Origin: Burkholderiaceae bacterium
GTDB lineage: Bacteria; Pseudomonadota; Gammaproteobacteria; Burkholderiales; Burkholderiaceae_C
Direction of reading: 5' to 3'
Length of the DNA stretch: 54,583 nucleotides
NCBI GenBank assembly: GCA_019751915.1
Contig: JAIEMS010000023.1
Location: forward strand, 1-54,583
Part shown: in pieces, positions 572-54,567 of the stretch
How positions within the stretch are numbered: the stretch's first letter is position 1
Layout of the letters: every line of letters starts with the position of its first letter
Translations under genes and position numbers: made by a program
Notes under the pieces: model-generated
Database searches by the model: none
Told to the model about the DNA's origin: nothing
What the model saw: only the letters and a program-made list of their open reading frames with translations

Positions 572-1960
572 TCAGTGTGCTGCGCCGCCGACTTGCGCGC
601 CCGGTTTCACGCGGTGCAGCAGCGCCAGCATGGCCGCCTCAATGCGGGCCAGCGCTTGGCTGGTTTGGCCCTCAAAGCGCAGCACCAGCACTGGCGTGGT
701 GTTGCTGGCACGGATCAGGCCAAAGCCATCGTCCCAATCGACACGCAGACCATCAATGGTGCTAATTTGCGCTGGAGCGGCAAAAGTCTCGGCGGCCAAG
801 GCTTGCAACTGGGCGGTCAGGCGGTGGGGTTCGCCTTCGGCGCAAGTGACGTTCAATTCGGGCGTGGAGTAGCTGGTGGGCAAGGCGTTGAGCACCGCAC
901 TGGGGTCTGGGCTGCGGCTGACAATTTCCAGCAAACGACAGCCAGCGTAGGTGCCGTCGTCAAAACCATACCAACGCTCTTTGAAGAAGATGTGGCCGCT
1001 CATTTCGCCGCCCAATGGCGAGTTCAGCTCCTTCATGCGCGCCTTGATGAGCGAGTGGCCGGTTTTGTACATCACCGGCACACCACCGGCAGCAGCAATG
1101 GCCGGGGCCAAACGCTGGGTACATTTCACGTCAAACAAAATGTGCCCACCCGGTACGCGGGTCAACACGTCTTGGGCAAACAGCATCATTTGCCGGTCTG
1201 GGAAGATGTTGGTGCCGTCTTTGGTCACAATGCCGAGTCGGTCGCCATCGCCGTCGAAGGCCAAGCCCAATTCAGCGTCGCTGGCTTGCAAGGCGGCAAT
1301 CAGGTCGCGCAGGTTCTCGGGCTTGCTCGGGTCGGGGTGGTGGTTGGGGAAGTTGCCATCGACCTCAGAGAACAGCTCTATCACCTCACAGCCCAGCGCC
1401 CGGAAGATATCGGGGGCCGAAGCACCGGCAATGCCGTTGCCACAATCGACCACCACCTTCATCGGGCGGGCCAGCTTGACATCGCTGGTAATGCGTTCGC
1501 GGTAAGCGGGCAAAACATCGGCTTGGCGCACCGCGCCACCCGGCTGCAGCTGCCATGTTTCTTGCTCCATCGTCTGGCGCAGCGCTTGGATTTCGTCGCC
1601 GTAAATGGCCCGGCCATTGAGCACCATTTTGAAGCCGTTGTAGTCCTTGGGGTTGTGGCTGCCCGTGACCTGAATGCCGGTATTGCACAAGGTGCTGGCA
1701 GCAAAATACAACAGCGGCGTGGTGACCAAGCCGACATCTATCACTTCGATGCCAGCTTCGACCAATCCGGCTATCAGCGCGGCGCTCAGGGCCGGGCCAG
1801 ACAAACGACCATCACGGCCCACGGCCACCGTGGTCTGGCCCTCAGCACGGGCCGCCGTGCCAAACGCACGGCCCAAGCCCCGTGCCACGTCTTCGGTCAA
1901 GGTGGACGGCACAATGCCGCGAATGTCGTAGGCTTTAAAAATCGAAGATGAGAGCTGCAC
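572..1960 (-). CDS. phosphomannomutase/phosphoglucomutase
   Basis: Interconverts hexose 1- and 6-phosphates (mannose/glucose), feeding nucleotide-sugar synthesis for LPS and exopolysaccharide; cytosolic, alpha-D-phosphohexomutase family (AlgC/ManB/Pgm type). The signature elements are present in order: TGSHNPKDYNG with the phosphoserine, FDGDGDRLG for the metal site, GEMSGHIFF for sugar binding, and RASNTTPVLVLRFEG for the phosphate. I place the start at GTG 1960 (VQLSSSIFKAYDIRG), giving 462 residues, the family's usual size. The frame stays open to 2095 but that upstream part is not family-like. No clear Shine-Dalgarno precedes the GTG. It lies directly upstream of waaA. Substrate preference between mannose and glucose phosphate cannot be read from the sequence. 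Confidence 0.9.
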   Translation of the reverse strand: MQLSSSIFKAYDIRGIVPSTLTEDVARGLGRAFGTAARAEGQTTVAVGRDGRLSGPALSAALIAGLVEAGIEVIDVGLVTTPLLYFAASTLCNTGIQVTGSHNPKDYNGFKMVLNGRAIYGDEIQALRQTMEQETWQLQPGGAVRQADVLPAYRERITSDVKLARPMKVVVDCGNGIAGASAPDIFRALGCEVIELFSEVDGNFPNHHPDPSKPENLRDLIAALQASDAELGLAFDGDGDRLGIVTKDGTNIFPDRQMMLFAQDVLTRVPGGHILFDVKCTQRLAPAIAAAGGVPVMYKTGHSLIKARMKELNSPLGGEMSGHIFFKERWYGFDDGTYAGCRLLEIVSRSPDPSAVLNALPTSYSTPELNVTCAEGEPHRLTAQLQALAAETFAAPAQISTIDGLRVDWDDGFGLIRASNTTPVLVLRFEGQTSQALARIEAAMLALLHRVKPGAQVGGAAH

Positions 1961-2818: not shown

Positions 2819-5773
2819 ATGCACTCGAAAGATGGGCCTCTGGCCTTACCCACCTGGGGGTTTGTGCCAGCCAACTCGCTGCAAACTCTGCGCCAACGCG
2901 AACAAGAGCTGCTGACAGCCCTGAAATCCTCCGGTGGCGGACGCTGGGAATGGGACGTACCAAACCGCTATCTTTCGTTTCATGGTGATTTTTATGCCCG
3001 CTACGGACTGCTAGCACTACCAGCCCACGAGCGCACGGCCTATTGGAGCAGTTTGGTGCACCCCGAAGACCGCAGCTGCATTGCCGAGTCGCGCCAGCGC
3101 ACCATCGACGGCCTATCGGAGCACTACGAGGCCGAGTTTAGGGTGCGCGACAAAGCCGGCCAGTGGCGCTGGGTGATTGCCCGAGGCAGCATCACTGAGC
3201 ACAGCGCCGACGGCCAAGCCGTGCGCTTGGTCGGCATCAGCCTCGACATCACAGCCCGGCGCGCCACAGAGGACGCGCTGCGCACCTCACAGGCCAAATA
3301 CAACACCATTTACCAAGCACTGCCCGATCCGGCGGGCATCTCACGGCTATCGGACGGCAGCTTCATCGAAGTCAATCCGGCCTTTTGCCAGCTCTTTGGC
3401 TACGCACGCGAGGCCGTGGTCGGGCGCACCTCGACACAGTTGAACATCTGGGCCAGCGAACAAGAACGTGATCGCCTGCTGGAAACCTACCGCCGCGACG
3501 GACTGGTGAACAAACTGCCACTGGTAGCACGCACCCACGACGGCGTGCGTGTGCCGGGGCTGATGTCGGCATACCCGGTACACATCGACGGGCAAGAATG
3601 CTTTGTTTTTGTCCTGCACGACATGACACGCGAACAGCGCATTCATGACGAACTAGAAGCCAGCAACAGCCTGCTACAACAAGCAGGCCGACTGGCGCGG
3701 CTGGGTGTCTGGGAAGACCAGCCGGGCAAAGGGCCGGTGTATTGGTCGGACGTGTGTTACAGCATCCACGGCCTTGCTCCCAACGCCCCCTTGCCACGCG
3801 ACTACCTGCAACGCCACGTCGCCCCGCAGTGGCACGAGGCCTTTCGGGATGCCATGCGCCGCTGCATCCGTGAACACATCGAATGGGATCTCGAAATCGA
3901 AATTGTTCGCACCGATGGCCGCTTAGTCTGGGTGCGAACCTTGGGTGAGCCGGTGTTAGAGGATGGCCGCGTCGTGCGCATTCGCGGTGTCATGCAAGAT
4001 ATTGACACCGCCAAGCGTGCTGAAGCACGGGTGCGCGAACGCGAGGCATTGTTGTCTTTGACCATCGAGGCCGCCTCGCTCGGCCTGTGGGACTGGGACT
4101 TGCAAGCGGGCACCATCAAAGGCGATGCCCAGTGGCTGGCAATGCGCGGCTTGACCCCCGACATCCACGATCCAGCATGGCCCGTCCCTTGGACGAAAAA
4201 CATGGTTTCGGACGACATCCCGAAAATCAGCCAAGAGTTACAACGCCACGCCGAGCACCCCAAAACCCATTTTGATGCCATTTGCCGCATCGAGCACCCC
4301 CGCGAAGGCGACCGCTGGATTCGCAATCTGGGCAAAACGGTGCGCTACGGCGCAGACGGTACGCCACTGCGGATGCTGGGTGTCTCTATCGATGTGACCC
4401 GCCAGCGCGAACAAGAGCAACAACTGCACCAACTGGCCCACCACGACGCGCTCACGGGCCTACCAAACCGGGTCTCGCTGGCGCGTCGGCTGGCCGATGC
4501 GATGTCCCAAACACGCGAAATGGGCACCCTGCTGGGCGTAGCCTATTTGGACTTAGACGGCTTTAAACCCATCAACGACAACCACGGCCACGATGCGGGC
4601 GACCGTTTGCTGGCGATGGCTGCCGGGCGTTTGACACAGGCCGTGCGCGCCAGCGACTGCGTAGCGCGTTTGGGTGGTGATGAGTTTGTCATTTTGTTGC
4701 CCGGTCTGCAAAAAGGACTCGACTGCGAGCGGGCGCTGCGCTTGGTGATGGAAAGCATCGCTGCGCCCTACAACTTGGGGGACGACTGCGCCAGCGTCAC
4801 CGTGACCGCCAGCATTGGCTACACCCTCTACCCACAAGACGATGCCGACGCCGACACGCTGCTGCGCCATGCCGACCAAGCCATGTACATCGCCAAGCAA
4901 AGCGGACGCAACCGTTTTCACCAATTCGATGCGGCCTCAGAACGGGCAGCGCAACAAGCACAAAAACAAACCGCACGGCTGCAACAATCGCTGACCGACG
5001 GCGAATTTGTGCTCTACCTGCAACCCAAGGTCGATATGCATCTGGGCACGGTGGTGGGCGCTGAGGCCCTAGCCCGTTGGCAACATCCGAAGAAAGGCCT
5101 GCTCGGGCCGGGGGCATTTTTACCGCTGCTGCAAGACGCAGAAATCGAAACCGCTTTTGGCACGTGGGTCACCAACACCGCCTTGGCAATGGCACAAACC
5201 CTGCAAGCGCAAGGCCTGCCTATCCCTTTGAGCATCAACATCTCGGCACCGCACCTACAACAGGCAGAATTTGCCCATTGGCTGGGTGAGCGCTTGGCCC
5301 AGCACCCAGAGTTACCCCGGGGAATGCTGCAAATCGAAATCACCGAGACGGCGGCGCTCTACAACCTCGCCCCAGTCGCCCACACGCTGCTGCAATTGCG
5401 CGAGATGGGGGTCGGCACCGCACTGGACGACTTTGGTACCGGCTATTCATCGCTGACCTACCTGCGCCGGTTGCCACTCGACACCCTGAAAATTGACCAA
5501 AGCTTTGTGCGTGGCATGGTCAACGATGCGGGAGATTTGGCGATTGTGCAGGGTGTCATTGGGCTGGCGCACTCGTTTGGCTACCACGTCATTGCCGAGG
5601 GGGTCGAAACCATAGAGCAAGGCCAGATGTTGCTGCAAATGGGCTGCCGCTTGGCGCAGGGCTACTGCATTGCCCGCCCGATGCCGTTGCAAGAGTTCAT
5701 TGCTTGGGTCAACCAGTGGCAAGCACCAGCGCAGTGGGGCGGTCAAGTTTTTTCGGCCAGCTTGGTGCGTTGA
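2819..5773 (+). CDS. PAS-GGDEF-EAL cyclic-di-GMP turnover protein
   Basis: Multidomain protein of 984 residues predicted to make and/or degrade cyclic di-GMP in response to a signal sensed by PAS domains. In order: four PAS/PAC-like modules (about 30-140, 155-270, 285-395 and 405-525; each ends in a DITxR-type linker such as SLDITARRA, IDTAKRAEA or SIDVTRQRE), a GGDEF domain with intact GGDEF at residues 619-623, and an EAL domain beginning with the EAL triplet at 749-751. The EAL domain keeps SINISA, IEITETA, DDFGTGYSSL, LKIDQSF and AEGVET, so phosphodiesterase residues look intact, and the GGDEF motif is canonical. No transmembrane segments are evident, so it is probably cytoplasmic. AAGGAA lies 9 bases before the ATG. 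Net activity cannot be predicted when both domains are intact. Confidence 0.93.
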   Translation: MHSKDGPLALPTWGFVPANSLQTLRQREQELLTALKSSGGGRWEWDVPNRYLSFHGDFYARYGLLALPAHERTAYWSSLVHPEDRSCIAESRQRTIDGLSEHYEAEFRVRDKAGQWRWVIARGSITEHSADGQAVRLVGISLDITARRATEDALRTSQAKYNTIYQALPDPAGISRLSDGSFIEVNPAFCQLFGYAREAVVGRTSTQLNIWASEQERDRLLETYRRDGLVNKLPLVARTHDGVRVPGLMSAYPVHIDGQECFVFVLHDMTREQRIHDELEASNSLLQQAGRLARLGVWEDQPGKGPVYWSDVCYSIHGLAPNAPLPRDYLQRHVAPQWHEAFRDAMRRCIREHIEWDLEIEIVRTDGRLVWVRTLGEPVLEDGRVVRIRGVMQDIDTAKRAEARVREREALLSLTIEAASLGLWDWDLQAGTIKGDAQWLAMRGLTPDIHDPAWPVPWTKNMVSDDIPKISQELQRHAEHPKTHFDAICRIEHPREGDRWIRNLGKTVRYGADGTPLRMLGVSIDVTRQREQEQQLHQLAHHDALTGLPNRVSLARRLADAMSQTREMGTLLGVAYLDLDGFKPINDNHGHDAGDRLLAMAAGRLTQAVRASDCVARLGGDEFVILLPGLQKGLDCERALRLVMESIAAPYNLGDDCASVTVTASIGYTLYPQDDADADTLLRHADQAMYIAKQSGRNRFHQFDAASERAAQQAQKQTARLQQSLTDGEFVLYLQPKVDMHLGTVVGAEALARWQHPKKGLLGPGAFLPLLQDAEIETAFGTWVTNTALAMAQTLQAQGLPIPLSINISAPHLQQAEFAHWLGERLAQHPELPRGMLQIEITETAALYNLAPVAHTLLQLREMGVGTALDDFGTGYSSLTYLRRLPLDTLKIDQSFVRGMVNDAGDLAIVQGVIGLAHSFGYHVIAEGVETIEQGQMLLQMGCRLAQGYCIARPMPLQEFIAWVNQWQAPAQWGGQVFSASLVR

Positions 5774-8418: not shown

Positions 8419-9474
8419 TTACATGCTCAGTTGGGCTTGAATTTCGCGGGCGATGGCGCTCAAAGGCACGACTTTGGCCACACCGCCGCGTTTGAAGGCT
8501 TCTTTGGGCATGCCATACACCACGCAGCTGTCTTCGTCTTGTCCTACGGTCAGTGCGCCAGCCTTTCGCATCTCTAGCAGGCCAGCGGCACCATCGTCGC
8601 CCATACCCGTCATGATGACACCCAATGCGTTGGCCCCGGCACTTTTGGCAACCGAGCGAAACAACACATCCACCGAAGGTTTGTGCCGGTTGACCAGCGG
8701 CCCATCCACTACCTCGACGTAGTATTGCGCCCCATTGCGTCGCAGCAGCATGTGCTTGCCTCCGGGGGCAATCAATGCCAACCCCGGAATGACGCGGTCG
8801 TTGTTTTGGGCCTCTTTGACATGAATTTGGCACAAACTATCGAGTCGGTTGGCAAAAGCAGCCGTGAATTTTTCTGGCATGTGCTGCACGATCACGATGC
8901 CCGGACACACTCTGGGCAAGGTGGTGAGCACAGCTTCGAGGGCTTGTGTGCCACCTGTGGAGGTGCCCAGTGCCACGACCCGCTGCGTGGTTTGGAGCAT
9001 GGCGCTGTGGTGCTCTGTCGCAGGCAAAATCACATCGGCAGTGAATTTTTGCACTACGTTCAGCCTGCGCACATTGGCCCGTGCTGCGGCTTTGACGGTT
9101 GCGGTCAAATCTTCGCTGGCATCGTGTAAAAACTGCTTGAGTCCAATTTTGGGCTTGGTGATGATCGAAACCGCCCCCGCCGACAGCGCAGCCAGAGAGG
9201 TTTGGGTGCCGCTCTCGGTCAGGGTCGAGCAAATGACCACCGGGGTCGGGCGCTCGGCCATGATCTTTTTCAAGAACGTAATGCCGTCCATGCGCGGCAT
9301 TTCAATGTCAAGCACAATGACATCAGGCCATTGCGCCTGCATTTTTACCATCGCCAGCAGCGGGTCAGAGGCTGCACCGATGACCTCGATTTCGGGGTCG
9401 GTCTCTAGCAGGGCGGTCACGACTTGGCGAACGACAGCAGAGTCGTCAATCACCATTACCTTGATACGTTTCAT
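8419..9474 (-). CDS. cheB: chemotaxis response regulator protein-glutamate methylesterase CheB
   Basis: Removes methyl groups from (and deamidates) chemoreceptors once phosphorylated by CheA, giving adaptation. The N-terminal receiver domain has the acidic pair in [11 protein letters not shown] and the phospho-acceptor in [13 protein letters not shown]. The C-terminal esterase has the catalytic triad: Ser in [13 protein letters not shown], His in VQHMPEKFT and Asp in [14 protein letters not shown] 9474 ([12 protein letters not shown]) gives 351 residues, the normal length; the longer frame to 9576 is not family-like. It is separated from the che operon (14.0-25.2 kb), which has cheR and cheD but no cheB, by four housekeeping genes. 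It diverges from pyrG. No convincing Shine-Dalgarno is seen. Confidence 0.95.
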
Positions 9475-9500
9475 GGGGTGGAATTTAGCAGACTGTTTAA

Positions 9501-12139
<2,639 letters not shown>

Positions 12140-14043: not shown

Positions 14044-15210
14044 TTGACTCATACCCTTTGGGATCATCCCACTTTCTGGGCTCCTGCCGGATTGGGTTTA
14101 GCCGGTGCGATGGCCGTGTTGGTGGCGGGCGGTTGGTCGCTACTGCCGCTGTTGTTGGCCGCGCTGCTGCTGGTGGGTGGAGTGCTGTTGGGCAGACATC
14201 TCACAAGTCAAGTCCAAGACCAATTACAACGCCAGTTACAGCCCTTTTTTGCAGGGCAGCAAGAATTTGGTGCACAAGTTGCGCCCGTCTGGGCCGGACA
14301 TATTGAGAACTCCCGTGCCCAAATGGAAGATGCCATCACTGTATTGGCACAGCGATTTTCATTGATCGTTGACCGCCTAGAGAACGCCGTCAACAGTGCA
14401 GGCCAAGCCACAGCGAATGTGGAGGGGGCGGGCAGTGGTTTGGTCGCTATCTTTGCCAGCAGTGAACGCGAACTCCAACAGGTGATTCACTCTCAGGCGA
14501 CCGCAATGGACAGCATGAACAGCATGCTAGAGAAGGTCGAGTCACTCAATCAATTCACCAAGCAGCTCGAAGACATGGCCTCTGAGGTGGCCAAGATTGC
14601 CGCACAGACCAACTTATTGGCCCTCAATGCCGCGATCGAAGCAGCACGCGCCGGAGACCTTGGACGCGGATTCTCTGTGGTGGCTAAAGAGTTTCGTATG
14701 CTATCGAACCAGTCCGGCGAAACCGGTCAGCGCATTACGGAGATGGTGCGTGTCATTAGCGAGGCCATCTCATCGACCTGCAAGGTAGCCCAAGAGTCGG
14801 TACACCAAGAAGACGGGTCGCTGCACAATGCACAACAGCGCATTGGGGGAGTACTGGGTGGGCTTCGGGAAGTTACCCATGCACTCGCAACCTCTAGCGA
14901 TTTACTGAAACAAGAAACTGTCACCATCCACGGTGACATTGCCGACGCACTGGTGCAGTTGCAATTTCAAGATCGGGTCAGCCAGATACTGACACAGGTT
15001 AAAACCAATATCGAGCAATTTCCTGCCTATCTGGCTGAATGCGAGAAAAACTACCTTAGCAGTGGCGAACTGCAAGGCTTAGATGCCACAGCGTTTTTGG
15101 CAGAAATGCGCAAGAGCTACGTCATGACCGACCAGCGCCTAACCCATGAACACAAGGGGGCTAGTAGCCCGGTGGCTCCTAAGCCTGATGATGAAATTAC
15201 TTTTTTCTAG
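14044..15210 (+). CDS. membrane-anchored MCP-like signalling protein without a sensor domain
   Basis: Protein of 388 residues that starts at TTG 14044, supported by AGGAG 7 bases upstream. Two hydrophobic segments in the first 55 residues form a hairpin with almost no periplasmic loop, then a coiled coil leads to a methyl-accepting-type hairpin tip, [21 protein letters not shown] with [14 protein letters not shown]. The C-terminal part contains [14 protein letters not shown], a motif I recall in short cluster-encoded MCP-like proteins. It opens the che operon, nine bases before the CheY-like gene. It probably joins the CheA/CheW array or senses the membrane or cytoplasm, but no ligand-binding domain is present. 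It ends ITFF and does not fit the CheR/CheB tether consensus seen in the two large MCPs. Confidence 0.85.
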
Positions 15211-15218
15211 GATGAGCA

Positions 15219-15587
15219 ATGGCAAAAACAATCATGGTAGTGGACGATTCCGCCTCAATCCGCATGGTAGTGGGCATCGCATTGCGCGGTGCTGGCTACG
15301 AAGTTATTGAAGCCAGCGACGGCGTTGATGCCGTGGCAAAGCTGACGGGCCAAAAGGTTCACCTCATTATTAGCGATGTCAATATGCCCAATATGGACGG
15401 CATCAGCTTCGTGAAAGCCGTCAAGCAAATGCCCAGTTACCGCTTTACGCCGATCATCATGCTGACTACTGAATCCGACGAGTCTAAAAAACGTGAAGGA
15501 CAGGTAGCAGGTGCTAAGGCTTGGGTGGTCAAACCGTTCAAACCAGAACAAATGCTTGCTGCTGTGCAAAAACTTTGCCTGCCCTGA
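15219..15587 (+). CDS. cheY: CheY-like single-domain response regulator
   Basis: Receiver domain of 122 residues, presumably phosphorylated by the CheA encoded 0.4 kb downstream. It has the acidic pair (VVDDSASIR), the phospho-acceptor Asp in IISDVNMPNMDG, the switch Thr in MLTTES and the Lys in VVKPFKPEQ. There is no output domain, so it acts by protein contact, for example with a flagellar or pilus motor or another regulator. It is tightly packed between the MCP-like and STAS genes, arguing for a dedicated partner in this cluster. The target is unknown. Confidence 0.93.
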   Translation: MAKTIMVVDDSASIRMVVGIALRGAGYEVIEASDGVDAVAKLTGQKVHLIISDVNMPNMDGISFVKAVKQMPSYRFTPIIMLTTESDESKKREGQVAGAKAWVVKPFKPEQMLAAVQKLCLP

Positions 15588-15589
15588 CC

Positions 15590-15925
15590 ATGCCTAGCTC
15601 CTCAGCCCCTTCGAGTTCTTCGCCTGCGACACTGCGGATCGAGGGTGACATGAACATCTACCGCGCTCAAGAGTTAAAGCAGGCACTCATTGCCCCTTTA
15701 CAACCGGGGGTTGAGTTGGAGGTCGATCTCTCGGCAGTCACCGAACTCGACACTGTGGGTCTGCAATTGTTGATGCTAGCCAAGCGCACTGCCGGCAAAC
15801 AGCAGGGCGCATTGCGGTTAGTAGGGCACAGCCCTGCCGTACTTGAAGTATTTGATATCTTGAATTTGGCAGCCTACTTTGGTGACCATTTGGTGATTCC
15901 ACCGCCTGCGGCGGGCAAGGTCTAA
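15590..15925 (+). CDS. STAS-domain protein (anti-anti-sigma-like)
   Basis: STAS domain of 111 residues starting 2 bases after the cheY stop. A Ser/Ala/Pro-rich N-terminus (residues 1-14) precedes a fold like SpoIIAA: DMNIYRAQELKQAL, then LEVDLSAVTELDTVGLQLLML. The phosphorylatable position of the D-(S/T)-x-G motif is Thr (DTVG). STAS proteins usually act as switches for a kinase or phosphatase partner; no such partner is encoded here, so a role tied to CheA or the MCP-like protein is inferred from the gene order only. Confidence 0.85.
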   Translation: MPSSSAPSSSSPATLRIEGDMNIYRAQELKQALIAPLQPGVELEVDLSAVTELDTVGLQLLMLAKRTAGKQQGALRLVGHSPAVLEVFDILNLAAYFGDHLVIPPPAAGKV

Positions 15926-15960: not shown

Positions 15961-18120
15961 ATGAACCTTGACCAAGCCCTGCAAACTTTCATTCTCGAAA
16001 GCCGTGAGTTGCTGGAGGACATGGAAAACGCCCTGCTGTCCGTTGAAAATGCAGCAGAAAAAAAAGAACTCATCAACGCAATTTTCCGGGCAGCCCACAC
16101 TATTAAAGGGTCTTCGGGCTTATTTGGTCTCGATCATGTGGTGGCATTCACCCACGTCACTGAAAGTGTCCTCGACAGGGTACGCAGTGGCACAATCAAC
16201 ATTGTCGATAATCTGGTAGTGGTTTTGCTGTCGTGCTGTGACCACATCGGAGCACTCATTGATGCGGTCGCGGAAGGGCAAACCGTACCCGACCCCGGGC
16301 TGACGGCCAAAGGCGAGCCTCTTTTGATCCAGCTTCGCACCTATCTAGGCCCATCTGCAGCACCAGCCACGCAACTAACCACAAAACAAACCGATGCGGA
16401 TACGACCCAACGTATCGCATCTGTTGCCAATACCTCAGACTGTTGGCATTTGTCGTTGCGTTTTGGTACCGAAGTTTTACGCAATGGCATGGACCCCTTA
16501 GCGTTTATCCGCTTTTTGGGCACGTTGGGAAAAATTGTGGACATTCTGGTGCTTCCTGACACTTTACCCGATGCGCAGGAGATGGATCCAGAAGCCTGCT
16601 ATCTGAGCTATGAGATTGCGTTAGAAACTACCGTTGATAAAGTCACTATCGAAAATACTTTTGAATTTGTGCGTGATGATTGTGAGTTGCATATTTTGCC
16701 GCCACATAGTCGGGTTAGTGATTACATTCGTTTGATTCAAGAGTCTCCAGCAGTTTCAGCCCGCTTGGGTGAACTTATGGTGCACTGTGGCACATTGACA
16801 CCACAAGAACTCGATGCTGCGCTGCACATCCAAGCAGAAACATCCCCAGCTCAACCTATTGGGGCTATTTTAGTCGAGCAGCGATCCATACAGCCTGAAG
16901 TTCTTGATGCTGCTCTGAACAAACAAAAACAAGTTAAAGAATTACATGCCCAAGAAAATCGCTCCATTCGCATTGATGCAGAAAAATTAGATCAATTAAT
17001 TACACTGGTAGGTGAATTGATTATTGTTGGTGCAGGTGTTAATCTTATTGCACGGCGAGCCCATATTCCAGAACTACAGGAAAGTACTTCTAAACTCTCA
17101 ACACTGGTCGAAGAAGTCCGCGACAGTGCTTTGCAGTTGCGCATGGTGAAAATTGGCGCAACATTTAGCCGATTTCAACGTGTGGTTCACGATGTATCGC
17201 GTGAACTAGGTAAAGATATTGAATTGATTATCAATGGTGAAGATACCGAACTAGATAAAACCGTAGTTGAGAAAATTGGCGATCCTTTGATGCATTTGGT
17301 TCGTAACTCAATGGACCACGGAATTGAATCTGCTCCTGTACGATTGGCTGCAGGAAAACCTGCACAAGGCATCTTACAGTTGAATGCCTACCATGATTCC
17401 GGATGTATTGTTATTTCGGTACAGGACGATGGCGGAGGCCTCAAACGTGAGCGCATTTTAGCCAAAGCAATTGAACGTGGTTTGGTTGAACTAGGCCATC
17501 AACTCACTGACAGTGAAGTTTATGCCCTGATTTTTGAACCAGGATTTTCTACGGCAGATAAAGTCTCTAACCTGTCGGGGCGTGGCGTTGGCTTGGATGT
17601 GGTCAAGCGCAACATTACTGCATTGCGTGGAAGCGTTAATATTCAGAGTGAAGAAGGAGTTGGGACTACCGTAACAGTACGCTTGCCCCTGACGTTGGCG
17701 ATTATCGATGGCTTTCTCGTCGAAGTGGAAACTTCCGTATTCGCCATTCCACTTGACATGATTGAAGAGTGTGTCACTTTTTCTGCAGAACCGGGACATA
17801 ACTATACTAATTTGCGCGGTGAAGTACTACCCTTTATTCGGCTGCGCGAACTTTTTGGCCTGACTGCACCGTCCACACGGCAAGAAAATATTGTCGTCAT
17901 CAAACATGCTGGACAAAAGGTCGGCTTGGTGGTTGATACTTTATTAGGTGAGTTTCAAACAGTGATTAAGCCACTAGGAAAAATATTTAATCAAGCGCAA
18001 TGCGTGAGTGGATCTACTATTCTTGGCAGTGGTGAGGTGGCTTTGATCTTGGATGTGCCAGCATTGGTGCAAAAGGCTGCGCATATTATGGCAACAACAA
18101 AGATTTTAGATGCTGTTTAG
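15961..18120 (+). CDS. cheA: chemotaxis histidine kinase CheA with MshEN-like insert
   Basis: Sensor kinase of 719 residues that phosphorylates the CheY-like protein and CheB. In order: HPt domain (1-110) with phospho-His about 46 in AAHTIKGSSG; a middle domain (about 160-260) in the place of P2; a tandem motif at about 268-322 resembling MshEN c-di-GMP-binding repeats (RLGELMVHCG... then PIGAILVEQR...); dimerisation helix (KLDQLITLVGELIIV); ATPase domain with HLVRNSMDHGIE, VQDDGGGL and GRGVGLDVVK; and a CheW-like regulatory domain. The catalytic boxes are intact. From about 16.6 kb on, the codons are clearly richer in A/T than in the housekeeping genes. The MshEN assignment is mine from the motif spacing. 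Confidence 0.93.
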   Translation: MNLDQALQTFILESRELLEDMENALLSVENAAEKKELINAIFRAAHTIKGSSGLFGLDHVVAFTHVTESVLDRVRSGTINIVDNLVVVLLSCCDHIGALIDAVAEGQTVPDPGLTAKGEPLLIQLRTYLGPSAAPATQLTTKQTDADTTQRIASVANTSDCWHLSLRFGTEVLRNGMDPLAFIRFLGTLGKIVDILVLPDTLPDAQEMDPEACYLSYEIALETTVDKVTIENTFEFVRDDCELHILPPHSRVSDYIRLIQESPAVSARLGELMVHCGTLTPQELDAALHIQAETSPAQPIGAILVEQRSIQPEVLDAALNKQKQVKELHAQENRSIRIDAEKLDQLITLVGELIIVGAGVNLIARRAHIPELQESTSKLSTLVEEVRDSALQLRMVKIGATFSRFQRVVHDVSRELGKDIELIINGEDTELDKTVVEKIGDPLMHLVRNSMDHGIESAPVRLAAGKPAQGILQLNAYHDSGCIVISVQDDGGGLKRERILAKAIERGLVELGHQLTDSEVYALIFEPGFSTADKVSNLSGRGVGLDVVKRNITALRGSVNIQSEEGVGTTVTVRLPLTLAIIDGFLVEVETSVFAIPLDMIEECVTFSAEPGHNYTNLRGEVLPFIRLRELFGLTAPSTRQENIVVIKHAGQKVGLVVDTLLGEFQTVIKPLGKIFNQAQCVSGSTILGSGEVALILDVPALVQKAAHIMATTKILDAV

Positions 18121-18181: not shown

Positions 18182-20800
18182 ATGTTTAGTAACCTGAAAA
18201 TTGGGATTCGGCTGACCACCGGATTTGCTGTTACATTAGCTTTTTTACTAATTATGACGGCATTTGGAATTACCCATATAAATTTATTAAATAATAAAAT
18301 TAATATTTTAACTAATGGGGTTTTCGAAAAAAATTTATACGCAACAAGTATTATAAATGGAATCAATGCTGGAGCGCGACACATAAGAAACTCCTATATC
18401 CTAAAAGACCCTCAAACTCAAGAAGAAATCGATAATATTTTAAAGCAAAGACAAATTGTTGGGTCGAATATAGAAAAACTTGAAAAAATAATTACTACAA
18501 ACGAAGAAAGAGATAATCTACAAAAAATGAAAGAGGCACGCAATGCCTACATCATTCAGGTAGATCGTTTTCTGGCGCTGACAAAAGCAGGTCAACGCGA
18601 AGATGCTGTTGCAGTTCTGGTCGGCGATCTGCGTAAAGTCCAAGCATCCTTCCTCAACATTGCCAATACATTTGCAGAAGATCAAGCAGCACTGACAATC
18701 AAAGTGGGCAAAGAATCTGAAGATTTTGCTGCCGACTCTGAACGCCTATTGCTCATTTTAGCAGCAGTTGCAACTATCGCTAGCATTTTGATGGGCTGGT
18801 TAATCACACGCAGCGTCACCATGCCAACCCGTCAGCTGATGGACAACGCCAACAAAATGGCTACTGGCAATTTTGATAACAAAATTGAAATCGACCAAAA
18901 AGATGAAATCGGTGCTTTAGCTAAATCACTGCGCATAATGCAAACTGCCGTACAATCCATGAAGTCTGATACGGTCATGCTATCGAGTGCAGCGGTACAA
19001 GGCAAGCTAGCCACCCGTGCCGATGTGAATAAACACCAAGGCGATTTCCGTGAAATTGTCCAAGGAGTTAACAACACCTTGGACGCAGTGATTGGCCCGC
19101 TGAATGTGGCTGCCAAGTATGTAGACGATATTTCGCGCGGGGCCATTCCCGTCAAAATCACCGATACCTACAACGGTGACTTCAATACCCTGAAGAACAA
19201 CCTAAACACCTGTATTGATGCGGTCAATGCGCTGGTGGCAGATGCAGCGGTGCTGTCGAATGCGGCCGTGCAGGGCAAGCTGGCGACCCGAGCCGATGCC
19301 AGCCAACACCAAGGAGATTTCCGCAAAATTGTCCAAGGGGTCAACAATACCCTGGATGCAGTGATTGGCCCGCTAAATGTGGCGGCAAACTATGTGGAGT
19401 GTATTGCCGTTGGCGACACGCCAAAACCCATCACCGACACTTACAACGGTGATTTCAATACCCTGAAAAACAACCTCAATTTGTGCATTGAGGCGACCAA
19501 CCAGCAAGCTTTGGCTGCTAAATCTATTGCGGCTGGTGACTTGTCGGTATCTGTCAAAGTGCGTTCTGAGAACGATGTGCTCGCAAAGAGTTTGCTCGCA
19601 GTGGTCAATGCAGTGAGTGCATTGGTACGCGATGCCAATTTGTTGTCGCGTGCCACCGTCGAGGGGCGTTTGTCTGTGCGTGCCGATGCAGCACAGCACT
19701 CGGGCGACTTCCGCAAAGTGATGGAAGGAATCAACGCCACACTGGAGTCGGTGGTGGTGCCCATCAACGAAGCCATGTCGGTGCTCAGTGCCGTTGAACA
19801 AGGTGATCTGACCCGCAGCGTTGATGGCCATTACCAAGGCAAGTTGGCAGAACTACGTGACATGGTGAACAACACCGTAACCAAAATGGCCAACGTCATT
19901 GCCGAAGTGCTGGAAGCAGCAGTCGCACTGTCTGGCGCATCCGATCAAGTCAGTGCCACGGCGCAATCGTTGTCACAGGCCTCTAGCGAACAGGCCGCAA
20001 GTGTTGAGGAGACCAGCGCCTCGGTTGAGCAAATGACCTCGGCGATTGCCCAAAATACCGAAAATGCCAAAATCACCGACAGCATGGCAAGCCAAGCGGC
20101 CAAACAAGCTGCGGAAGGAGGCCAGTCTGTGGCGGCAACTGTGGCAGCCATGAAGCAAATTGCCAAGAAAATTGGCATCATTGACGACATTGCCTACCAA
20201 ACCAATTTGTTGGCACTCAACGCGGCCATTGAGGCGGCCCGTGCAGGCGAACATGGCAAGGGCTTTGCTGTGGTGGCTGCTGAAGTACGCAAATTGGCCG
20301 AGCGCAGCCAAATAGCGGCGCAAGAGATCAGTGAAGTAGCTGGCTCCAGCGTTGATTTGGCTGAAAAGGCGGGCAAACTGCTAGACGATATTGTCCCCAG
20401 TATTAAAAAAACCTCAGACTTGGTGCAAGAGATTACTGCGGCCTCGGAAGAGCAATCTTCAGGAGCCGGTCAAATTAATTCTGCCATCAGCCAATTGAGC
20501 CAAACCACGCAGCAAAATGCCTCTAGCTCTGAAGAACTGGCTGCCACTGCTGAAGAGATGAGCAACCAAGTGGCCCAGCTACAACAAACAATGGCATTTT
20601 TTAAAATTGAACCTATTAATGTAGTCCGGAAAAGAGTTACCGTAGCTCCACGCAAAATGGCATCATTGGGGCGTCATGCCGACTCCCACAAACTTGGGAG
20701 CGATACCAAGCATGTGATTGAAGCATCTGAGCCTCGCGTATCTCTCACAATAGATTCGCGAAGTAAAGAGATTGATGAAAGCAAATTCACCAGATTTTGA
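18182..20800 (+). CDS. methyl-accepting chemotaxis protein with poly-HAMP region (MCP 1)
   Basis: Chemoreceptor of 872 residues: membrane segment at about 9-33, a helical periplasmic domain to about 185 resembling the four-helix-bundle (4HB_MCP) type, a second membrane segment at about 190-212 ([18 protein letters not shown]), a HAMP domain, then a chain of HAMP-like units with a repeated block starting [12 protein letters not shown] (two copies 91 residues apart), and the signalling hairpin ([42 protein letters not shown], given here as one landmark). It ends KFTRF, which fits the CheR/CheB tether consensus. The first 500 bases are very AT-rich. The C-terminal two thirds is nearly identical in DNA to MCP 2. 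The ligand is unknown. Confidence 0.93.
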
Positions 20801-20811
20801 AAGCCGCAATC

Positions 20812-21366
20812 ATGAACAATATTGTGTCAACGGGTAGTCAGCGGTCGAATGCACCAGCATCATCAAGCCAAGCTGAAGAGAAAAAGCAATACCTCACATT
20901 TATGCTGAGTGGTGAATCATTCGCTATCGGCATTTTGTGCATTAAAGAAATCATCGAATACACCGGACTAACACAAGTACCAATGATGCCCGATTGTATT
21001 CGAGGAGTTATTAACTTGCGTGGCTCGGTAGTTCCTGTGTTGGATTTGGCGGTTCGCTTCGGTAAAAAATCTGGAGAAATCACAAAAAAAACCTGTATCG
21101 TTATTATTGAAGTCGCTTCTGGTGATGAGCGCCATGATATGGGTGTAGTGGTTGATGCAGTGAATGCGGTACTTGAAATACCACACAGCGAAATTGAGCC
21201 ACCACCAGCTTTTGGTGCCAAAATTCGCACTGACTTTATCGAAGGCATGGGTAAAGTAGGGGGCAAGTTCGTTATTTTACTCAATGCAAACCAAGTGCTA
21301 TCCATTGAAGAGCTTAGTGCTTTGCAACGCGTGGCACCTTCCACTGAATCTAATTTAGAAATTTAG
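20812..21366 (+). CDS. cheW: chemotaxis coupling protein CheW
   Basis: SH3-like adaptor of 184 residues that docks CheA to receptors. Core motifs: YLTFMLSGESFAIGILCIKEI, VPMMPDCIRGVINLRGSVVPVLDL (the signature region) and GVVVDAVNAVLEIP. A Ser/Ala-rich N-terminal tail of about 20 residues precedes the domain. I prefer ATG 20812 (MNNIVSTGSQ); a TTG at 20797 would overlap the MCP 1 stop. It lies between the two large MCP genes in the same direction. Confidence 0.93.
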   Translation: MNNIVSTGSQRSNAPASSSQAEEKKQYLTFMLSGESFAIGILCIKEIIEYTGLTQVPMMPDCIRGVINLRGSVVPVLDLAVRFGKKSGEITKKTCIVIIEVASGDERHDMGVVVDAVNAVLEIPHSEIEPPPAFGAKIRTDFIEGMGKVGGKFVILLNANQVLSIEELSALQRVAPSTESNLEI

Positions 21367-21461: not shown

Positions 21462-23807
21462 ATGTTTTCAAATCTCAAAATAAAAACCAGATTATTTTTA
21501 GGTTTTTTCTCTATTTTTATATTTTTAGTAATCATTGCGCTCATCGGAATCACAAAAATAAATCAAATAAATTCAAGCATCAATGGAATTGTTAATGGCA
21601 ATATACCAAAAACAGCCCAAGCCAATGCGGTGATTGATAGTTTGAATGAAAACTCAAAAAGCATCAGAAATGCTTACATATTCAAAGAGGCAGATGCAAA
21701 AAAAGAGCTAGATGAAATACCAAGAGTCAGCAAGGTAATTTCCGAAAATTTAGAGAAGTTAGAAAAATCTATAACTACCGATGCAGGAAAAGCTGACTTA
21801 CGAAAAATAAAAGAAGCTAGAGCTTTGTATCTTGTCGAAATGAATCGATACCTTGAGATGCTTAAAAATGGGCAGCGCGAAGAGGCCGTTGGAATTTTAT
21901 CTGGATCTCTGAGAAAAACACAGACAGATTACGTCAATGCGGCCAATGCCTTAGTAGCTGGGCAAACAGAATTAACAATTAAAGTCGGGCAGGGTGCCGA
22001 AGAATTGGCAGCTGAAACTGGTCGTTTGTTAATTATTTTATCAACTACTGCTGCTATTTTTAGTGCTGTTATGGCATGGCTAATCACACGCAGTGTGACT
22101 GGTCCGACCAACCAACTCATGGACAATGCCAATAAAATGGCCGCAGGAAATTTTGATTTCAAAATAGAAATTAACCAAAAAGATGAAATTGGAGCTTTAG
22201 CCCAATCGCTGCGTGTGATGCAAGCTTCAGTTCAGGCGATGATGTCTGATGCAGCAATGCTTTCAGGGGCAGCGGTGCAAGGAAAATTAGCTACCAGAGC
22301 CGATGCCAATCGACACCAAGGTGATTTCCGTAAAATTGTCGAAGGTGTCAATAACACTTTAGATGCAGTGATTGGCCCGCTGAATGTGGCAGCAAATTAT
22401 GTGGAGCGTATTGCCGTTGGTGACACGCCAAAACCCATCACCGACCCTTACAACGGTGATTTCAATACCCTAAAAAACAACCTCAATTTGTGCATTGAGG
22501 CGACCAACCAGCAAGCTTTGGCTGCTAAATCTATTGCGGCTGGTGACTTGTCGGTATCTGTCAAAGTGCGTTCTGAGAACGATGTGCTCGCAAAGAGTTT
22601 GCTCGCAGTGGTCAATGCAGTGAGTGCATTGGTACGCGATGCCAATTTGTTGTCGCGTGCCACCGTCGAAGGGCGTTTGTCTGTGCGTGCCGATGCAGCA
22701 CAGCACTCGGGTGATTTCCGCAAAGTGATGGAAGGAATCAACGCCACGCTGGAATCGGTGGTGGTGCCCATCAACGAAACCATGTCGGTGCTCAGTGCCG
22801 TTGAGCAAGGCGATCTGACCCGCAGCGTCAAAGGCCACTACGAAGGAAACTTAGGAGAGCTGCGGGACATGGTAAACAATGCCGTAGCAAAAATGGCCGA
22901 TGTCATTGCTGAAGTGATGGATGCTGCAGAGACGCTATCGAATGCCGCAGGGCAAGTCAGTGCCACGGCGCAATCGCTGTCGCAGGCCTCTAGCGAACAG
23001 GCTGCGAGCGTCGAGGAGACCAGCGCCTCGGTTGAGCAAATGACCTCATCAATTGCCCAAAATACTGAAAATGCCAAGATCACCGATAACATGGCAAGCC
23101 AAGCAGCCAAACAAGCTGCAGAAGGAGGCCAGTCGGTGGCTGCAACTGTGGCAGCCATGAAGCAAATTGCCAAGAAAATTGGCATCATTGACGACATTGC
23201 CTACCAAACCAATTTGCTGGCACTCAACGCAGCCATTGAGGCCGCCCGTGCAGGCGAACATGGCAAGGGCTTTGCTGTGGTGGCTGCTGAAGTACGCAAA
23301 TTGGCCGAGCGCAGCCAAATAGCGGCGCAAGAGATCAGTGAAGTAGCTGGCTCCAGCGTTGATTTGGCTGAAAAGGCGGGCAAACTGCTAGACGATATTG
23401 TCCCCAGTATTAAAAAAACCTCAGACTTGGTGCAAGAGATTACTGCGGCCTCGGAAGAGCAATCTTCAGGAGCCGGTCAAATTAATTCTGCCATCAGCCA
23501 ATTGAGCCAAACCACGCAGCAAAATGCCTCTAGCTCTGAAGAACTGGCTGCCACTGCTGAAGAGATGAGCAGCCAAGTAGCACAGTTACAGCAAACTATG
23601 GTATTTTTTAAGATAGAAAATGGTGGTAATTTTTACCGTAAAAAAAATGCAGTGCCACTGCGTAAAAATTCCTCATCAAAATTTCGACCCATTACCAACA
23701 AATTAATTAATGAAAATCTGCGCTTTAACGATCAACCCACTTCTTCATCCTTGATTTTGGAAGCAAGTGACACAGAAATTGATGAAAGAAAATTCACAAA
23801 ATTCTGA
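21462..23807 (+). CDS. methyl-accepting chemotaxis protein (MCP 2), paralogue of MCP 1
   Basis: Chemoreceptor of 781 residues with the same plan as MCP 1: membrane segments at about 9-30 and 190-210 around a helical sensor domain, HAMP, poly-HAMP chain and signalling hairpin. It has only one [12 protein letters not shown] block, and the length difference to MCP 1 is exactly 91 residues, one unit. The sensor domains differ clearly (ligand specificity may differ), while the region from about 22365 to 23600 is almost base-for-base that of MCP 1. It ends KFTKF, again a tether-type pentapeptide. ATG 21462 is preceded by AAAGGACACAGGAA. Confidence 0.93.
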
Positions 23808-23886: not shown

Positions 23887-24702
23887 ATGATTTCCATGCC
23901 ACAAATTACCAGCCATGAGTTTGGTCAATTCCAGCAATTCATTTTTGAAGCAGCAGGAATAACCCTTCCAGACTCTAAACAAGCACTGGTAAGTGGCAGG
24001 CTCATAAAACGCTTGGACTTTTATGGGTTGAAAAGCTATGGTGCCTATTTTAAATTACTAAAAGGCCCATCTGCCTCTGCCGAAATTCAAATTGCAGTTG
24101 ACTTACTCACAACCAACGAAACCTATTTTTTCAGAGAGTCTAAACACTTCGATTTTTTGCGAGAACAAGCACTAGGAGCACGTAGTCGCAACCAAGTTTT
24201 CAGGGTATGGAGTGCGGCCAGTTCCAGCGGTGAAGAAGCTTATAGCATTGCTATGGTGTTGGCAGATTGCTTGGATGGTTATGGAAATTGGGAGGTCGTT
24301 GGCTCTGACATTAGCAGCCGCGTTCTTCAAGGGGCCAAGCGGGCACATTATTCCATGGAGCGTGCGCGTAATATTCCATATAATTACTTACAAAGATTTT
24401 GCCTACGGGGCACTGAAGAGTACGAAGGAACCATACTCATTAATCGCACATTGCGTAGCAAAGTTAATTTTAGACAAATAAATCTGAATGCAGCATTTCC
24501 AGAATTAGGGTTATTTGATATCGTATTTTTACGCAACGTAATGATTTATTTTAGTGATGAGACAAAGCGCGGAGTTATTTCTCGGGTTATTTCTACTATA
24601 AAACCGGGCGGGCACTTTCTGATCGGCCATTCAGAAAATTTGAATGACCTAACAAGAGCAGTCAAACATTTGGCACCATCTATTTATCACAAAATTTTGT
24701 GA
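23887..24702 (+). CDS. cheR: chemotaxis protein methyltransferase CheR
   Basis: SAM-dependent methyltransferase that methylates receptor glutamates. It has TTNETYFFRE, the SAM-binding VWSAASSSGEEAYSIAM, GSDISSRVL, FLRNVMIYFS and GHSENL. The beta-subdomain between RGT and INL has the same length as in E. coli CheR (no three-residue gap), which is the form that binds receptor C-terminal pentapeptides; the MCPs here carry fitting tails. The frame has ATG at 23887 and another at 23896; I give the first, 271 residues. One base separates it from cheD. Confidence 0.94.
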   Translation: MISMPQITSHEFGQFQQFIFEAAGITLPDSKQALVSGRLIKRLDFYGLKSYGAYFKLLKGPSASAEIQIAVDLLTTNETYFFRESKHFDFLREQALGARSRNQVFRVWSAASSSGEEAYSIAMVLADCLDGYGNWEVVGSDISSRVLQGAKRAHYSMERARNIPYNYLQRFCLRGTEEYEGTILINRTLRSKVNFRQINLNAAFPELGLFDIVFLRNVMIYFSDETKRGVISRVISTIKPGGHFLIGHSENLNDLTRAVKHLAPSIYHKIL

Positions 24703-24703
24703 A

Positions 24704-25207
24704 ATGGTGCAACTAAGCCATTTAGTCGATATTTTTTTACAGCCTGGCGAGTATTTTGTCGGTAATGCCGATTTTCAAATACGCACCATGCTAGGATCTT
24801 GTGTTTCGATTACCCTATGGGATCCGATCAAACGCATTGGGGCAATGTCCCATTTTTTACTCCCAAAACGTACTTATACGACGGAGCCAATTCGGCATCT
24901 CGATGCCCGCTATGGCGACGAGGCCTTGCTGTTAATGCTGGGTGAACTGGCCCAAGTGGGTGTCTCGCCAGCGCAGTGCCAAGGAAAAATTTTTGGCGGT
25001 GGCAATATGTTTCCGGGGCATCGCAGTGCTGGAAGTATGCAAATCGGCCAAAGAAATGGTGAAGCAGCACGGGCCTTGCTGCGCGATCGGGGAATACCTA
25101 TCGTTTCAGAGAGTTTGTTCGGTATCGGCCATCGGCAAATCATTTTTGATGTCAGCACTGGTGATGTCTGGTCGCGTCAGGTTCGTTTGTCTACAGAAGA
25201 AACATAA
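24704..25207 (+). CDS. cheD: chemoreceptor glutamine deamidase CheD
   Basis: Deamidates specific glutamines in receptors and can modulate CheA signalling. The catalytic Cys is in MLGSCVSITLWD and the His in AMSHFLLPKR, with the Thr preceding the Cys strand (IRTMLGSC); GGGNMF and SESLFGIGHRQIIFD follow the family pattern. Length 167. It starts one base after the cheR stop. It closes the che operon; in many relatives cheB would follow here, but the next gene is coaBC. Confidence 0.93.
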   Translation: MVQLSHLVDIFLQPGEYFVGNADFQIRTMLGSCVSITLWDPIKRIGAMSHFLLPKRTYTTEPIRHLDARYGDEALLLMLGELAQVGVSPAQCQGKIFGGGNMFPGHRSAGSMQIGQRNGEAARALLRDRGIPIVSESLFGIGHRQIIFDVSTGDVWSRQVRLSTEET

Positions 25208-53675: not shown

Positions 53676-54567
53676 TCCATCGATCCACCAAGGGCCACAG
53701 CAGGGGATGAATATCGAACCATTCGGCCCCATTGCGGTAGTTCAAGATAACCCGTGTATTAAACAGTCGTGCCAAGGCACGCAAAGAGTCCCCACGGTCT
53801 GCCGCAATCGCGTTGTGGGTACATGCAATATCAGCCAGCAAAGGCCATTCGCTTTTTACCGTCAGTCGTTCAGTCTCGCCCCGATTTTCGTCAATGATAC
53901 GTTGAACCAATGGGTCATCCACTTTCAAAGGCAGCCTATCGAGTGCAAACTGTGCTTGCCCCACCACGCCCGATACCAGCCTTTGCATAAAGTGGCGCAA
54001 ATCGCCCCCCGAGGCCAAGGCTAGAGCGTCTAATGTCGCTGGGGCCAACACTTCATTCCATTGCCGGTAGCGCCGTTCAATAAGAGAACGCATCTTCTCT
54101 AAACCTTCGGGCCGAGGCTTGCGTCGATACTCAGTCGGTTGTCCATTGGCTACCGGCTTACCATAGACCCGCACCGATGCCAGCGCGTAGCAAGAGACAT
54201 AGTTACGTACATCTGCCAAAAGTGCTAGGTAGGGCGGCACGGAATACACCACGCTGGCAGTTGGAATGCCCAAGCGTTCAAATTCTCCTGAAAACGTCGT
54301 AACCACATGCTGAAACATCGCATCTTGGTCTGCGTTAGAGACACCTCGCAGCCGCTCCAGCGAATCGACGATAACGACCACCCTTTGACGGCGGGTACGC
54401 TGGCGAATAAACTCTACGATGGCACTGGCATATGCTTGTACTTTCGCTGTCCACTCTCGAGGAGCTGAAAGATTTCGGATTTTTTCGGCGACGGTATTTT
54501 GCTGCTCCTTAGAGTGGCTAACACAACCTATCCACGAACCGAGAGCAGATGATGGCAGCGGCCAATG
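53647..54567 (-). pseudogene. C-terminal part of a P-loop ATPase, apparently interrupted upstream
   Basis: The frame is open from 54567 (just after an in-frame TGA at 54568-54570) to 53647. It contains a Walker B-like strand QRVVVIVDSLERLRG followed by sensor-like SVVYSVPPYLALL and a helical C-terminus ending HPLLWPLVDRWNEHTNAATP. No Walker A motif and no credible start codon lie in the visible part; the first GTG (54381) is inside the Walker B strand. Likely the 5' part was separated by an insertion sequence whose end I place near 54512, so real ATPase sequence would start at about 54511. It overlaps the TPR gene by 29 bases, suggesting a joint system. Confidence 0.6.

Follow-up and report, generated by a model that had tools for sequence, protein, structure and literature searches.

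A CheA chemotaxis kinase with a predicted c-di-GMP-binding MshEN domain in a Burkholderiaceae bacterium

MshEN domains in described proteins and in the CheA of the window

The MshEN domain of the V. cholerae ATPase MshE (PDB 5HTL) is built from two 24-residue motifs that form a four-helix bundle, and its contact positions recur in the CheA kinase described here. GSPII-C of the Thermus thermophilus protein PilF, a pilus ATPase, differs from this CheA domain by a third motif but has the same 7-residue spacer and likewise opens motif II with Pro: Pro335 is reported as its sole deviation from the consensus, the second c-di-GMP site of PilF (KD 460 nM) has been attributed to it and the authors widened motif position 1 to R/K/L (PMC11731258). 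In E. coli NfrB an MshEN domain is likewise fused to another enzyme and c-di-GMP binding has been shown (PMC8669469), although NfrB is a membrane glycosyltransferase and no kinase. Other proteins connect c-di-GMP to chemotaxis, namely a PilZ receptor, MapZ on CheR and CheY-like proteins; these are described as acting at the receptor, CheR or CheY and not at CheA, which is portrayed as a kinase lacking an intrinsic sensor domain (PMC10782961). According to the first-pass annotation of the present locus, no CheA with an MshEN domain is known to have been described. The novelty of the pairing is lessened by Wang et al. 2016, who mention the association of MshEN with ‘chemotaxis protein kinase CheA’, the same pairing as here, the accessible part of their paper giving no mechanism for CheA (PMC5013675). 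What stands is that the literature searched, to which most subscription journals do not belong, yielded no study characterising an MshEN-CheA; the main text of a 2023 survey of CheA architectures contains no occurrence of MshEN, T2SSE or c-di-GMP. The pairing is thus known and, as far as we found, uncharacterised, and the analysis below shows it to form a conserved CheA subtype whose pocket likely works.

The window, i.e. the whole stretch of 54,583 nucleotides that was analysed, carries this CheA within a chemotaxis gene cluster (Table 1). Membership in the CheA family is given by four Pfam matches (Hpt, dimerisation, HATPase_c and CheW-like), all of them over the cut-off. The P2/CheY-binding domain, an auxiliary domain absent from some CheA, gave no Pfam match; a folded region is present at this place in the full-length AlphaFold model (built on 51 CheA sequences, mean pLDDT 82.9, pTM 0.55), from which the P2-like region was placed. 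Domain matches and model agree with the first-pass siting of the MshEN domain between the P2-like region and the dimerisation helix. For the neighbouring CheW, an ATG 15 bases downstream of the TTG appears to be the likelier start, as read from the sequence.

Table 1. Positions of the CheA gene, its parts and the neighbouring genes in the window
Feature	Positions	Strand	Evidence or remark
PAS-GGDEF-EAL c-di-GMP enzyme, ~10 kb upstream of CheA	2819..5773	+	PF00990, PF00563, PAS
CheB methylesterase, away from cluster	8419..9576	-	PF01339, PF00072
Short methyl-accepting protein	14044..15210	+	PF00015
CheY-type response regulator	15219..15587	+	PF00072
STAS-domain protein	15590..15925	+	PF13466, PF01740
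CheA histidine kinase, 719 aa	15961..18120	+	Pfam and NCBIfam matches; AlphaFold model
CheA domains (residues)	Hpt 6-90; P2-like ~160-247; MshEN 268-322; dimerisation helices 334-392; ATPase 441-578; CheW-like 584-705		
MshEN motif I, residues 268-291, RLGELMVHCGTLTPQELDAALHIQ	16762..16833	+	sequence, NCBIfam profile, conservation in 94 domains
7-residue spacer AETSPAQ, residues 292-298	16834..16854	+	sequence
MshEN motif II, residues 299-322, PIGAILVEQRSIQPEVLDAALNKQ	16855..16926	+	sequence, NCBIfam profile, conservation in 94 domains
Last MshEN helix, residues 312-335	16894..16965	+	DSSP of full-length model
Chemoreceptor, several HAMP	18182..20800	+	4HB_MCP_1, HAMP, three HAMP_2, MCPsignal
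CheW	20797..21366	+	PF01584
Chemoreceptor, several HAMP	21462..23807	+	4HB_MCP_1, HAMP, two HAMP_2, MCPsignal
CheR methyltransferase	23887..24702	+	PF01739, PF03705
CheD	24704..25207	+	PF03975

Motif pair, profile matches and predicted fold

An MshEN-like motif pair with MshE-type spacing had been annotated at 16762-16926. These coordinates are exact (16762 is the first base of residue 268 and 16926 the last base of residue 322) and both 24-residue motifs are present, but the spacer comprises 7 residues where MshE has 5. A pattern search found a motif pair in 107 CheA frames, of which 83 have spacers of 6 to 11 residues; the values of 31 and 34 in this set stem from mis-paired motifs. Aligned to MshE, motif I residues R268, L269, G270, G277, L284, L288 and Q291 correspond to R9, L10, G11, G18, L25, L29 and Q32, and motif II residues P299, I300, G301, R308, L315, L319 and Q322 to R38, L39, G40, G47, L54, L58 and Q61. 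Compared with the strict motif RLGxx(L/V/I)(L/V/I)xxG(L/V/I)(L/V/I)xxxxLxxxLxxQ, motif I keeps all six key residues and bears Met at position 6 and Thr at position 11. Motif II deviates by Pro in place of Arg (Arg38 of MshE), Ile in place of Leu, Arg in place of the turn Gly (Gly47 of MshE) and Ser at position 11; it indeed opens with Pro-Ile-Gly (P299, I300, G301) where motif I has Arg-Leu-Gly, as first noticed. The core positions 273, 278 and 309 are thereby Met, Thr and Ser, and Arg308 stands where motif II would have its turn glycine. A relaxed form of the motif allows Pro at position 1 but neither Arg at position 10 nor a polar residue at position 11; even so relaxed, it does not cover Arg308 or the polar residues at 278 and 309 (PMC5013675). 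Doubts about the pocket that are left concern these three residues. The Pro opening motif II, by contrast, is by analogy tolerated, because PilF GSPII-C likewise opens this motif with Pro and is reported to bind c-di-GMP; PilF 302-360, which lies in the best PDB sequence match of the segment (phmmer), aligns gap-free with the same 7-residue spacer.

The NCBIfam model NF053729 (‘cyclic di-GMP-binding domain-containing protein, MshE-related’) matches CheA residues 268-322 with an E-value of 5.4e-10 and 38.9 bits at a cut-off of 38, and it matches 18/18 alignment rows (the window CheA and 17 relatives) at E 0.001 or better. The Pfam MshEN profile PF05157, proposed as a check in the first-pass annotation, was formally negative: neither the protein nor the segment was matched at E-values up to 10, nor any of the 18 rows (0/18) at E up to 0.01. 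Since Pfam misses the domain, a survey based on Pfam profiles would probably overlook MshEN-CheA. A weak Pfam match of the segment to DUF4388 (E 0.00096, 19.6 bits versus a cut-off of 25) was set aside.

We modelled the domain alone (94 aa, alignment of 94 rows, mean pLDDT 81.2) and compared the model with 350,542 PDB chains by Foldseek. The top four matches are all titled c-di-GMP complexes: 8pfa and 9gl5, which are PilF GSPII-B point mutants, and the V. cholerae MshE chains 5htl_B and 5htl_A. They reach Foldseek probabilities of 0.99-1.00 with rmsd values of 1.0-1.6 Å over 57-58 columns (1.0 and 1.6 for the two MshE chains), but their E-values of 0.24-0.59 are weak, and with this short domain none of the 24 matches reaches 0.001. 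The other 20 matches include the PilB N-domain 7lkm at rank 10 (probability 0.44) and 19 chains that look unrelated by title. The suggested comparison with the MshEN-c-di-GMP structure thus returned the four-helix MshEN_N fold. Residues 268-322 would accordingly be expected to form such a module, with one c-di-GMP held between the two motifs. The C-terminal subdomain of MshE is not seen in CheA; as isolated V. cholerae MshEN_N 1-62 binds c-di-GMP at 0.35 µM (PMC5013675), its absence would be no obstacle. That a helical linker merely resembles MshEN by chance, a reading to which the Pfam miss lends itself, is next to impossible in view of the NF053729 E-value, the fold matches and the residue conservation described below, and was rejected.

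Conservation of the ligand contacts and distribution of the domain

Contact positions were mapped to V. cholerae MshE on the basis of PMC5013675. Across 94 aligned CheA domains, G270, G277, L284, L288, Q291, G301 and Q322 are invariant (94/94). Arg occupies position 268 in 83/94; at position 299 Pro occurs in 53 and Arg in only 4, and at position 308 Gly occurs in 43 and Arg in 8 of the 94. Mean entropy is 0.49 at the 12 contact positions versus 1.54 at the other motif positions, a difference equalled in 91 of 100,000 permutations. As these 94 domains had been picked with a profile of the domain, the residue count was redone on loci retrieved with the whole CheA. Among the 31 domain-hit frames of this second set Q322 is kept in 31/31, Q291 in 27/31 (three gaps, one Asn), G270 in 30 and G301 in 29; two of these frames (L209 and L211) look decayed and one (L246) is apparently not the CheA frame of its locus. 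The contact residues are on the whole conserved among relatives, including both Gln and both Gly of the RLG position.

The genome to which the window belongs yields 43 GGDEF and 3 PilZ matches. Besides the window CheA, NF053729 matches one frame in this genome, of 634 aa on contig 1, that is also matched by Pfam MshEN. A second CheA on contig 14 (G000:C14:49239-51449, equal to L150:9240-11450), adjoining an MCP and CheR, shows 54% identity over query residues 1-634; its MshEN is decayed, with a motif I that lacks RLG and Gln and no motif II, as judged by eye. A third CheA, on contig 7 and without MshEN, lies beside frames read by eye as fliM, fliP and fliR. At least three kinases of one cell therefore differ in this putative c-di-GMP input.

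Decay of this kind bears on the question whether the fold in the window CheA might be retained as a spacer or dimer aid after loss of ligand binding, as reported for XpsE of Xanthomonas. The replacement of the turn Gly by Arg308 and of Arg by Pro299, together with the rarity of Arg at position 1 of motif II, would fit such a loss. However, XpsE is reported to lack G11, I19, L29, R38, G40, L54, L58 and Q61 (PMC5013675), of which the window CheA keeps all except I19 (Thr278) and R38 (Pro299), and the invariance of both Gln in the 94 domains is opposed to their loss, together with RLG, in the decayed copy of the same genome; we consider this explanation quite unlikely. Another cyclic dinucleotide such as 3′,3′-cGAMP is a highly improbable ligand: V. 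cholerae MshEN_N does bind cGAMP, but weakly (KD 3.3e-4 M), whereas the same domain binds c-di-GMP at 5e-7 M (PMC5013675), and the genome is rich in GGDEF proteins. Profile, predicted fold and contact conservation uphold the assignment as an MshEN domain, and direct c-di-GMP binding by this CheA, as proposed at first, is therefore well supported. The binding is strongly predicted from computed motifs, fold and contacts: residues 268-322 very probably bind c-di-GMP.

We searched for relatives with the whole CheA as query. At family level (E 1e-100), 35/150 genomes match, the own genome included, and 15/29 aligned CheA loci of other genomes carry MshEN, while 14/29 are without it (the same 14 by profile). 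At class level (E 1e-120), 37/274 genomes match, again including the own one; 29/47 CheA places outside the own genome carry the domain by profile (E 1e-4), two of them looking decayed, and 18/47 do not. A further set, L040-L119, represents the best 80 of 547 candidates; as these were ranked by a domain-containing query, no frequency is derived from them. By record title, these best 80 of 547 come from, among others, Simplicispira, Rhodoferax, Roseateles, Massilia, Duganella, Rugamonas, Azonexus, Gallionella, Methylobacter and Pseudomonas, and an oddity confined to the window genome was accordingly rejected. The occurrence of Methylococcales among the relatives, and the mention of an F8 system for a methanotroph (PMC7184735), led us to think of the F8 chemosensory class for the window CheA, which is only a guess.

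In a tree of 135 of 142 kinase cores (seven short ones dropped), most of them fetched with the domain, MshEN-less CheA are scattered among MshEN-bearing CheA. We read this computed placement as repeated loss of MshEN, in a tree with several poorly supported nodes and a mostly domain-fetched set. Patchy presence and decayed copies imply that the chemosensory pathway works without MshEN in many species. Distant CheA in genomes of the same phylum bear MshEN-like motif pairs. At least four of them (L136, L137, L138 and L144) have just one residue between the motifs, which may reflect an independent gain or an older form. In Aeromonas (L038) and Pseudomonas (L039), a cluster including an MshEN-CheA was seen on plasmids of 98 and 180 kb, respectively, which are typed non-mobilizable in PLSDB.

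Gene neighbourhood and possible control of the kinase

The genes around MshEN-CheA recur in the order MCP, CheY, STAS, CheA, MCP, CheW, CheR, CheD, CheB; among the best 80 of 547 loci STAS was found in 80/80 and CheY in 76/80. We compared clusters in a family sample of 31/46 places outside the window genome and a class sample of 47/47. In these samples together, STAS accompanies 34/44 MshEN-positive versus 8/34 MshEN-negative CheA (p = 3e-6, uncorrected for ancestry). The STAS gene may be compared with CheS of Sinorhizobium, a small CheA-binding protein. The association would suit a domain that binds c-di-GMP without gating the kinase and instead alters the location or partners of CheA, for example how it assembles into arrays, whether it is placed at the pole, or whether it contacts the STAS protein or a phosphodiesterase. 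Against this, the last MshEN helix abuts the dimerisation helices in both models, a site suited to gating: the first dimerisation helix (340-367) begins four residues past it in the full-length model (DSSP), and a single helix spans 312-343 in the domain-only model. A role in location or partners alone seems unlikely to us.

In the gating model that we prefer, the MshEN module would connect the phosphotransfer arm (formed by P1 and the P2-like region) with the dimerisation helices, its last helix running nearly straight into the latter. Via this helix, c-di-GMP binding could make the P1-P2 arm stiffer or change its orientation towards the ATPase domain; the shift of the arm may alter autophosphorylation or phosphotransfer, and the chemosensory pathway would gain a second input beside its receptors. 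The effect on the kinase, whichever its sign, is what we infer here, and c-di-GMP control of CheA is plausible. That c-di-GMP both binds CheA directly and modulates kinase output is, taken jointly, a likely reading. Speaking against binding or control are the Pfam MshEN miss, the weak Foldseek E-values, Arg308, Pro299 in place of the stacking Arg and the patchy presence of the domain.

c-di-GMP is a signal for settling down, and decisions on swimming and settling may meet inside one enzyme. A widespread CheA subtype with a c-di-GMP pocket would give this lifestyle second messenger direct access to the array, with no adaptor needed.

Some clusters additionally encode a potential source of feedback. 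Of the best 80 of 547 loci, 13 have an EAL protein without GGDEF in the cluster, between CheW and CheR in 3 and directly after CheB in 10; downstream che genes are visible in 44/80 loci, and one of the 14 EAL frames listed is a fragment without the EAL motif. A receiver domain was confirmed in 9/13 of these proteins, and the six that were scanned are Response_reg plus EAL. All nine, when aligned, keep the receiver Asp and Lys and what we take to be the EAL catalytic residues, the roles of the receiver positions likewise being assumed. PAS-GGDEF-EAL genes follow CheW in L074 and L089, and a GGDEF/EAL-type gene stands after CheB in the MshEN-negative cluster of L179. In the family sample REC-EAL genes occur in 4/15 MshEN-positive versus 0/16 MshEN-negative clusters (p = 0.043), in the class sample in 0/29 versus 0/18, and pooling both gives p = 0.13. 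Given the class-level zeros, the pooled value and the restriction to a lineage, a general link between MshEN-CheA and REC-EAL is not claimed. The presence of a REC-EAL phosphodiesterase in clusters of some relatives suggests feedback, the link being lineage-restricted and overall not significant. More tentatively, and with considerable doubt on our side, one operon could contain a closed loop in which CheA senses c-di-GMP via MshEN and phosphorylates the adjacent REC-EAL phosphodiesterase, so that the array would serve both as chemosensor and as c-di-GMP homeostat. The window genome gave no match spanning both receiver and EAL, and a loop there would therefore need another enzyme.

Two further observations were made in the window. 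The chemoreceptors at 18182-20800 and 21462-23807 share long stretches that are near-identical by eye, and the pair is perhaps a recent duplication. A 777-aa frame on the minus strand (51399-53732) contains many near-identical tandem repeats of ~48 residues that are TPR-like by look.
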